A stretch of 64,000 nucleotides of DNA from Halorubrum persicum (lineage in GTDB: Archaea > Halobacteriota > Halobacteria > Halobacteriales > Haloferacaceae), in NCBI RefSeq assembly GCF_002727125.1, contig NZ_NHOA01000043.1, forward strand, positions 1-64,000. Reading direction: 5' to 3'. Shown one piece after another: positions 43,460-44,862 of the stretch (within the stretch, counting starts at the first letter, position 1; each line of letters begins with the position of its first letter). The notes under the pieces were generated by a model. The model ran no database searches, was not told the origin of the DNA, and saw only the letters and a list, made by a program, of their open reading frames with translations. The position numbers were made by a program, and so were the translations under genes.

Positions 43460-44113
43460 TCAGGCGATGTCTCGACTCGTGTCAACCGACACGGTGTCGG
43501 TGAGTTTCAGTTTGAGGGGCTCCTCGAGGGCCGCGCCGCCGCGGAACTTCGGCACGATCAGGCGATTCACGATCTCCGTGCCGGTGACCGTCGTCCGGAG
43601 GTCGAAGACCACGTCCGCGATCTGCTCAGTGACGGTCCGGTTTTGTCCGTTCTCCCCCTTGAGTGCGTGTATCACCGCGATTCCCCCCGACTCGGCGACG
43701 TGGCCGCGAAGGTCGGTGAGAAACGACCCGTATCGCGATCGGTCGGCCGCCTCCAACGGCTCGACGGAATCGACGACGAGCGTCGCGCGTTCCGGGAGAT
43801 CCGCGGCGGCCGCCAACACGTCGTCGATCGGGTCCTCGCGGTCCGTTTCCTCGACGACCGTGTCCCCGTCGTCTCCTTCCGTCCCGTCGCCGTTATCTCC
43901 CTCTCTCTCCTCGTCGAGGACGAGGGACGCTTCGACCGCGTCGGCCGAGCGCACCGTCGTGAGGTAGCGACACTCTCGCGGGCGCGAGAACCGGTCGACA
44001 ATCAGCTCCGACTGGCTTGCGGGGTCCGCCTTCAACACGACGAGGCTGCCGCTCGGGAGTCCGCCGCCGAACTCCCTGTCCAGCACGGAGATCCCAGTCG
44101 GGAGCGTCTCCAT
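43460..44113 (-). CDS. RecA/KaiC/RadA-like protein with degenerate P-loop
   Basis: 217 aa starting METLPTGISVLDREFGGGLP, the usual entry of RadA/KaiC-type ATPase domains. The Walker A position reads GSLVVLKADPASQSEL, lacking GKT/S, so canonical ATP hydrolysis is unlikely. A Walker B-like ATLVVDSVEPL (~115-125) remains, then HALKGENGQNRTVTEQIADVVFDL and RLIVPKFRGGAAL. Haloarchaeal DUF7125-like. A GTG at 44191 would add 26 unconserved residues but overlaps the MinD stop (GTGA), so coupling is possible. Probably co-transcribed with the MinD-like gene just upstream. Confidence 0.75.
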   Translation of the reverse strand: METLPTGISVLDREFGGGLPSGSLVVLKADPASQSELIVDRFSRPRECRYLTTVRSADAVEASLVLDEEREGDNGDGTEGDDGDTVVEETDREDPIDDVLAAAADLPERATLVVDSVEPLEAADRSRYGSFLTDLRGHVAESGGIAVIHALKGENGQNRTVTEQIADVVFDLRTTVTGTEIVNRLIVPKFRGGAALEEPLKLKLTDTVSVDTSRDIA

Positions 44114-44187
44114 ACCCTCGCTGCCGGCTCTGGAGGTTTGGCTCTGTCGATGGGGGACGAGCGCCCGACCTGAACCGGGTGCGGGGC

Positions 44188-44862
44188 TCACGCGACCCGC
44201 CAGCGCTCCGCCCCGTGTGCGTCGGCGAGGCGGCGAGCCAGGTCGTCGTACGCCGCTCGCACCGACGAGTCGGACAGCGGCTCCGGTTCGGCCCGCGGGA
44301 CACGCCCGAGCACCTGACAGCCGAGCAGGTCGCTCACTCCCGCCGGGACCGACTCGGCCCGGACGGCGACGACGCCGATCGGAGCGCAGTCCAGTCGACG
44401 CGCGAGCGCAGCGGTCTTCGCGGCGTCTCGGAGCGCCGCCCGCCGAAGCGGCGTGACGAGGAGAGATCTGTCGGCAGCTCGGAGCGGGGCCGCGGCGTCG
44501 GGCGACGCTCCCGCGGGACAGTCGACGAGAGTCGGCGAGTCGTCGGGAACCGCCGCTGACAGCGCTCCGAGGGCTCGCCTTGCATCGGCATCCGCGGGCG
44601 CGTCCGGCGGCGAAAGCACCGTCGGCGCCCGGCGGTCCGGGGAGATTTCTCTCTCGCCCCGGACCGCGTCGAGCACGGTCGGCGCGTCCGCGGCGGACTC
44701 GCGGTCCGCACCGGTCGCGCTCGCCAGCCGTGCGAGGTTCGGGAGGTCCCAGTCGGCGTCGGCGGCGACGACGGGGGCGCCCCGCCGCGACAGCGCCCGC
44801 GCGAGCCCCAGCGTGGTGGTCGTTTTCCCGCTTCCGCCCTTACCGCCGGCCACAGCTATCAC
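44188..44862 (-). CDS. MinD/ParA-like deviant Walker ATPase
   Basis: 224 aa from GTG 44862. Deviant Walker A GGKGGSGKTT (~6-15) with the signature Lys8, VVAADADWDLPNLARL (~31-46) like the MinD/Soj switch, and a Walker B-like TLVDCPAGASPDAA (~108-121). The C-terminal membrane-targeting helix of bacterial MinD is not evident. Haloarchaeal MinD paralogues position archaella and chemosensory arrays. Its neighbour is the degenerate KaiC-like protein, which may be its regulator or adaptor. Confidence 0.85.
   Translation of the reverse strand: MIAVAGGKGGSGKTTTTLGLARALSRRGAPVVAADADWDLPNLARLASATGADRESAADAPTVLDAVRGEREISPDRRAPTVLSPPDAPADADARRALGALSAAVPDDSPTLVDCPAGASPDAAAPLRAADRSLLVTPLRRAALRDAAKTAALARRLDCAPIGVVAVRAESVPAGVSDLLGCQVLGRVPRAEPEPLSDSSVRAAYDDLARRLADAHGAERWRVA

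Follow-up and report, generated by a model that had tools for sequence, protein, structure and literature searches.

A MinD3-type ATPase gene next to DUF7125, a KaiC/RadA-like protein with a replaced P-loop, in Halorubrum persicum and other Halobacteria

Two adjacent genes on the minus strand

The window, which is the whole 64,000-nucleotide stretch of Halorubrum persicum DNA that was analyzed, carries a pair of genes on its minus strand. The upstream gene (44188..44862; GTG start, TGA stop) translates as IAVAGGKGGSGKTTTT and was assigned to the MinD/ParA ATPases of MinD3 type by a Pfam CbiA match of 54.9 bits (cut-off 25.4) and by BLASTP. The ORF downstream of it translates as METLPTGISVLDREFGGGLPSGSLVVLKADPASQSEL; residues 27-243 of this long ORF match DUF7125 (PF23442) with an E value of 1.7e-58 and 197.6 bits (gathering cut-off 29.1), covering profile positions 1-207 of 207, and the KaiC 'ATPase' family PF06745 is matched with 30.6 bits (cut-off 26.6). 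We place the DUF7125 gene at 43460..44113, with the ATG at 44113 as its probable start; it would extend to 44191 if a GTG start were used. The preliminary description of this DNA had read a deviant Walker lysine and a GKT in the upstream protein and, in the downstream one, a KaiC/RadA-like start, a Walker B-like strand and ADPASQSEL in place of GKT. All of these are present in the translations, the Walker B-like strand as LVVDSVEPLE. No inverted repeats of note were found around the pair.

Translational coupling through a GTGA overlap had also been proposed. The string is indeed present at 44188..44191 (minus strand), but its GTG is probably not the start that is used and coupling is doubtful, as the conserved start is the ATG at 44113: all 17 aligned Halorubrum-group sequences, that of the window among them, have this Met, the PF23442 family begins at it, and the 26-residue stretch that precedes it from the GTG is variable except for one block conserved at the nucleotide level. 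The block spans 34 bases (44119..44152, minus strand), just upstream of the ATG, and has hardly changed among 11 Halorubrum sequences, one of them from the window, whereas the rest of the leader varies, which makes coupling unlikely. DUF7125 itself shows synonymous differences of 28-48 percent, so the block resembles a nucleotide signal more closely than a run of codons and is a possible regulatory element. The frame from the GTG is open in all 11 sequences with no change in length, the codon being GTG in 10 and CTG in one, and translation of DUF7125 from 44191 may therefore occur.

The DUF7125 gene is the product of neither chance nor decay. A match is present in 36 of 39 genomes (source genome included), and the best match is free of stop codons in 35 of these 36, the exception having one TAA. 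In 10 Halorubrum comparisons dN was 0.06-0.17 and dS 0.36-0.75. Decay to a pseudogene in sister species, raised earlier as a way in which the pairing could fail, is ruled out by the dN/dS values together with class-wide conservation. In one distant genome (G139, locus L152) DUF7125 is split over two frames. A known anti-phage defense system was also considered and set aside: no PADLOC model matched DUF7125, and the MinD gave a single 14.7-bit match (E 0.003) over 42 residues, which does not amount to membership.

The deviant Walker A motif of the MinD-like protein, KGGSGKT, lies at 44821..44841 (minus strand) and includes the signature lysine K8 and the P-loop lysine K13. Both lysines of the KGGxGKT pattern, as well as the Walker B residue Asp114 (VDCPAG; 44521..44523, minus strand), are invariant in an alignment of 47 of the 49 MinD3 sequences prepared, from which L066 and L054, a frame lacking Walker A, were left out. 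The protein scores 72.5 bits with the archaeal MinD model TIGR01969, short of the curated cut-off of 201.75, so by that model it is MinD-like and not a member. The deviant Walker A and Walker B are shared with MinD4 and bacterial MinD. No membrane-targeting helix was evident by eye in the C-termini of MinD3, whereas a Haloferax MinD4 (L219) ends in KKKGFFSRFLG, which by eye resembles the membrane helix of bacterial MinD.

Haloferax has four MinD paralogs, and in BLASTP the window protein matched the MinD3 type best (1e-25, against 1e-14 or weaker for the others). The genus in our sample (g22) was taken as Haloferax because the PCNA of one of its genomes is identical at 245 of 247 residues to PDB 3hi8/3ifv, which we take to be the PCNA of H. 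volcanii; MinD1 was placed by its distance from PCNA in gene numbers. Three of these genomes encode a 257-residue MinD with K16 and D117, a paralog other than the one paired with DUF7125; MinD4, read in one of the genomes, also has K16 and D117 along with a long tail, and the DUF7125-paired MinD has K8/K13 and D103 or D96. K16 and D117 are the residues mutated in the MinD2 work, according to the available text of PMC11588486 and PMC11621097. By exclusion, the MinD paired with DUF7125 is of the MinD3 type, HVO_1634. The published MinD2/HVO_0596 pair of H. volcanii has the same architecture, a haloarchaeal MinD paralog followed by a conserved gene of unknown function that is its suspected partner, and in the available text of PMC11588486 HVO_0596 is described as having no phenotype and a predicted contact with MinD2. 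That the window pair is this one is next to impossible: the K16/D117 fingerprint marks a different MinD paralog in three Haloferax genomes, and the protein encoded after MinD2, read in two Haloferax genomes, has no sequence relationship to DUF7125. Provided that the residue numbers in the papers refer to this MinD, the identity is thus ruled out, and the published work on HVO_0596 does not concern MinD3 and DUF7125. The gene at the HVO_0596 position (L221, L223) begins MRIPRGELRRSRVV.

The P-loop region and retained motifs of DUF7125

We collected 166 DUF7125 hits from fetched loci, skipping loci that repeated the same genes; 80 of the regions were picked for genus spread from the listed matches of a class-wide search, and collapsing six identical sequences left 160 distinct ones. 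In the window protein, the segment in place of the P-loop reads KADPASQSEL (44003..44032, minus strand), with S33, Q34 and E36 conserved. Across the nine columns ADPASQSEL, GK[ST] occurs in none of the 160 sequences (one row is gapped there), and consequently none has the Walker A pattern GxxxxGK[TS]; within the six columns PASQSE, lysine is likewise found in 0 of 160 (again with one gapped row). What occupies the loop is strongly conserved: SQ is found in 157 of 160 sequences, with S, A, G, V or T as the next residue, and 99 percent keep the Glu of SQxE. In a separate alignment of 58 of the 78 prepared references, which contained no fusions, the S, Q and E are invariant (58/58).

Other motifs of the fold have been retained. 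The Walker B-like strand TLVVDSVEPLE (43751..43783, minus strand) keeps its Asp (D115) and the Glu six residues on (E121) in 159 of 160 sequences. The K-x-R motif (K189-F-R191; 43541..43549, minus strand), which aligns with the K-x-R of the KaiC family, is likewise kept in 159 of 160. For all three the exception is the split gene at L152, one end of which is out of frame. The C-terminal tail DTSRDIA (43463..43483, minus strand) is found exactly in 99 of 101 sequences encoded downstream of a MinD3, in 42 of 45 encoded without one and in 3 of 14 fused to one.

When a profile of the 58 aligned sequences was searched against the sequences of the PDB, archaeal KaiC-like proteins, KaiC, RadA and ArlH were matched, with SSO2452 giving the best E value (4.7e-7), followed by KaiC (1.6e-6) and PH0284 (2.4e-5). 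PF06745 and these profile matches place DUF7125 with the RecA/KaiC group by sequence. In the alignments with KaiC-family chains, which presumably carry a P-loop GKT/S themselves, the rebuilt loop coincides with the P-loop region, and the K-x-R of DUF7125 with that of the family; ArlH, SSO2452 and PH0284 also share the Walker B Asp. DUF7125 differs from them in lacking the P-loop GKT/S, and with the ArlH equivalog model NF052589 it scores 30.5 bits, far under the cut-off of 215. In the SSO2452 alignment, the second glutamate of TTEES pairs with an arginine present in every one of the 58 DUF7125 sequences. We take the TTEES glutamates to be the counterparts of E77/E78 of KaiC, the KaiC alignment being shifted by one there. 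As for the K-x-R, the available text of PMC2777353 describes K224, R226, K457 and R459 of KaiC subunit n+1 as holding the phosphates of the neighbor's ATP. An AlphaFold2 model computed from 17 Halorubrum-group sequences was unusable (mean pLDDT 51). Read from the aligned sequences, the P-loop of DUF7125 is replaced and not eroded, and the change is old and conserved; DUF7125 is very probably not an ATPase.

Neighborhood, fusions and presence across Halobacteria

The preliminary description had named conservation of the two genes as neighbors as a check on the pairing, and the genomes bear it out. MinD3 precedes DUF7125 on the same strand in 107 of the 166 hits (with the split gene at L152 counted twice); 14 hits are fused to MinD3 and 45 stand alone. 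By genus, with 10 named loci that lack a genome handle left out, 34 of 69 have paired copies only, two paired and solo, 10 fused and solo, one fused only and 22 solo only, so that the two genes adjoin in 36 of the 69 sampled genera and are fused in 11. Fusions were searched for in 48 genomes, which makes their number a lower bound; the class-wide MinD search listed additional matches in frames 435-489 residues long. Paired MinD3 proteins have GKT in 99 of 101 cases, the remaining two being broken or partial frames, and the MinD half of the 14 fusions has GKT in 12, GKS in one and GTS in one. The last of these (L165) reads KGGCGTS and so lacks the P-loop lysine. At L013, L054, L124 and L145 the frame of the partner MinD is broken or masked; at L013, L054 and L145 the MinD3 frame is seemingly broken or partial and the DUF7125 downstream is intact. 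Either sequencing error or decay may account for these frames and for the split gene at L152.

In the fetched stretches, pyrB and an FKBP gene on the opposite strand both flank 19 of 100 paired rows, 21 of 44 solo rows and all three of the fused rows that bear the DTSRDIA tail. These common flanks mark one locus at which MinD is present, absent or fused. The other 11 fusions lie elsewhere, form one clade (support 96) and lack DTSRDIA. On a tree of 159 of the 160 rows (the row left out has fewer than 150 residues and is half of the split gene at L152), all fusions fall within one part of 38 rows, and the fusion label must change three times, two of the changes being forced by well-supported branches; the tree program warns of long branches among the fusions. 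The tree does not uphold a minimum of three separate fusions. Between one and three origins are allowed, and there may have been a single gain with later loss of the MinD half.

Class-wide, 235 of 242 Halobacteria genomes have a DUF7125 match at E 1e-3, and in 233 it is over the cut-off; the same search gave matches in two of 14 named control genomes (Corynebacterium glutamicum and Haloferax volcanii), one of them over the cut-off. MinD3 was called where the best E value was under 1e-45, with three linked cases that were masked, broken or weak (G069, G232, G233) added; because this threshold is our own and MinD paralogs also match, the MinD3 counts are approximate. By these calls MinD3 is present in 181 of 242 genomes, and four of the 181 are without DUF7125 (G031, G046, G149 and G195), G031 being a borderline carrier of MinD3 (4e-48). 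Conversely, DUF7125 is found over the cut-off in 56 of the 61 genomes without MinD3. The near-universal presence of DUF7125 leaves the association between the two weak (Fisher p 0.047), and the asymmetry is plain: DUF7125 often occurs without MinD3, and MinD3 rarely without DUF7125. In G149 and G195, which belong to one genus (L188, L193), the MinD3 has lost its P-loop lysine (KGGTGTT). G046 (L187/L254), which also lacks ArlH, has an intact MinD3 Walker A (KGGCGKT) near an FKBP gene.

Possible roles of the pair

A switch ATPase joined to a RecA-fold partner without an ATP site had been suggested for these genes, and the altered P-loop, the conserved neighborhood, the fusions in 11 genera and the asymmetric retention support such a module. 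As neighboring genes that are fused in some species, MinD3 and DUF7125 probably form one switch-and-adaptor unit, and physical contact between their products is likely. MinD3 would be an ATP-driven switch of the MinD/ParA kind, dimerizing as its family suggests, and DUF7125 a partner of KaiC/RadA fold without an ATP site of its own that serves as adaptor or effector; the two would touch, and the nucleotide state of MinD3 would set whether, where and with whom DUF7125 assembles. Since DUF7125 appears able to act without MinD3, it would be the core part and MinD3 its regulator. We favor this two-part module, in which MinD3 acts on a nucleotide-free RecA-fold adaptor, only tentatively, at a little under an even chance. 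The lost P-loop lysine in the MinD half of the L165 fusion, the intact MinD3 Walker A of G046 and the weak statistical association speak against it.

The solo copies are an argument for a different reading, in which the two genes are independent members of a shared operon, DUF7125 being a stand-alone adaptor of another system and MinD3 a mere frequent neighbor. The motifs, and mostly the tail, are intact in the 45 of 160 sequences that are solo, so that MinD3 is not needed for the upkeep of those copies; DUF7125 is also kept in 56 of 61 MinD3-less genomes, and the fusions may trace to as few as one event. Fusion has nonetheless been maintained in 11 genera, and the MinD3 P-loop lysine is lost in two DUF7125-less genomes of one genus; we regard independence as rather unlikely, although with an appreciable chance. 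The invariance of S, Q and E in 58 aligned sequences, a degree of conservation beyond what mere loss of function would leave, would also suit a rebuilt P-loop that binds another ligand, a different nucleotide or a metabolite, and makes DUF7125 a sensor with MinD3 as its output switch. The six loop columns, however, hold no lysine with which to grip a phosphate, and such a sensor seems distinctly unlikely.

A specific role in archaella or chemoreceptor positioning, which had been envisaged for the pair, fares worse. MinD3 would place the motility machinery by way of DUF7125, in keeping with the effects of MinD2 and MinD4 on motility positioning in Haloferax volcanii (available text of PMC11588486 and PMC11621097) and with the weak similarity of DUF7125 to ArlH. 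Yet when the DUF7125 and ArlH genome tables were compared by eye, DUF7125 was over its cut-off in 48 of 51 ArlH-less genomes and in 185 of 191 ArlH-bearing ones (Fisher p 0.40), and of the 20 ArlH-less genomes listed out of the 51, 14 have a MinD3 by the E threshold. A quadruple minD deletion of H. volcanii, moreover, swims like the minD2/4 deletion in the available text of PMC11621097. This explanation is accordingly improbable, and the pair may have a positioning or signaling role of another kind. MinD3 (HVO_1634) is named in published work, and the available text of the haloarchaeal MinD papers PMC11588486 and PMC11621097 reports no role for it. Our literature search found neither DUF7125 by name nor publications on HVO_1632, HVO_1633 or HVO_1635-1638.

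The retained K-x-R allows a more specific and frankly speculative version of the module, which we consider unlikely. DUF7125 would be a pseudo-ATPase with its own ATP site rebuilt into SQxE, whose K-x-R still reaches into a neighboring RecA-fold ATPase, so that it caps or inserts into an active assembly and completes the neighbor's site, and the ATP cycle of MinD3 would load or remove it. If true, this would be a clutch between two classes of ATPase, nearly universal in haloarchaea, of a kind that we did not find described in the literature.

Among inactivated or degenerate RecA-type proteins, the literature search yielded one useful parallel, BcsE of enterobacterial cellulose secretion, which with BcsQ is the closest known arrangement that we found. 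Like MinD3 and DUF7125, BcsQ and BcsE combine an NTPase of the MinD/BioD superfamily (SIMIBI) with a partner that has a RecA/KaiC-like domain, and in BcsE the Walker A of this N-terminal domain is severely diverged and the domain was judged unable to bind ATP (available text of PMC7439463). According to the same text, it is the degenerate GGDEF domain of BcsE, not the RecA-like one, that BcsQ binds. BcsQ also works with BcsR, and DUF7125 is a single RecA-like domain and archaeal; the likeness is one of arrangement. The archaeal pair would stand beside BcsQ-BcsE as a MinD-type NTPase working with a protein that carries a dead RecA-like domain. DUF7125 is a near-universal haloarchaeal protein (235/242) that is unnamed in the literature found, and its MinD partner has no role reported in the text available; the fusions point to that partner and the conserved motifs to residues for mutation, in organisms with good genetics.

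The tail offers a further hint. Solo copies keep it, yet 11 of 14 fusions do not have it, and it may thus serve a third protein. At eight of 10 loci with wide flanks (L242-L248 and L250), a MinD1-type gene, 41-52 percent identical to Haloferax MinD1, lies within a few kilobases of the tail-less fusion. By BLAST, a DUF7857-like ORF clusters with the MinD1-type gene at the same eight loci; Pfam confirmed it in both loci examined, and such an ORF is also present at the MinD1 locus of Haloferax (1.5e-9). These neighbors are a hint that the MinD paralogs are connected.
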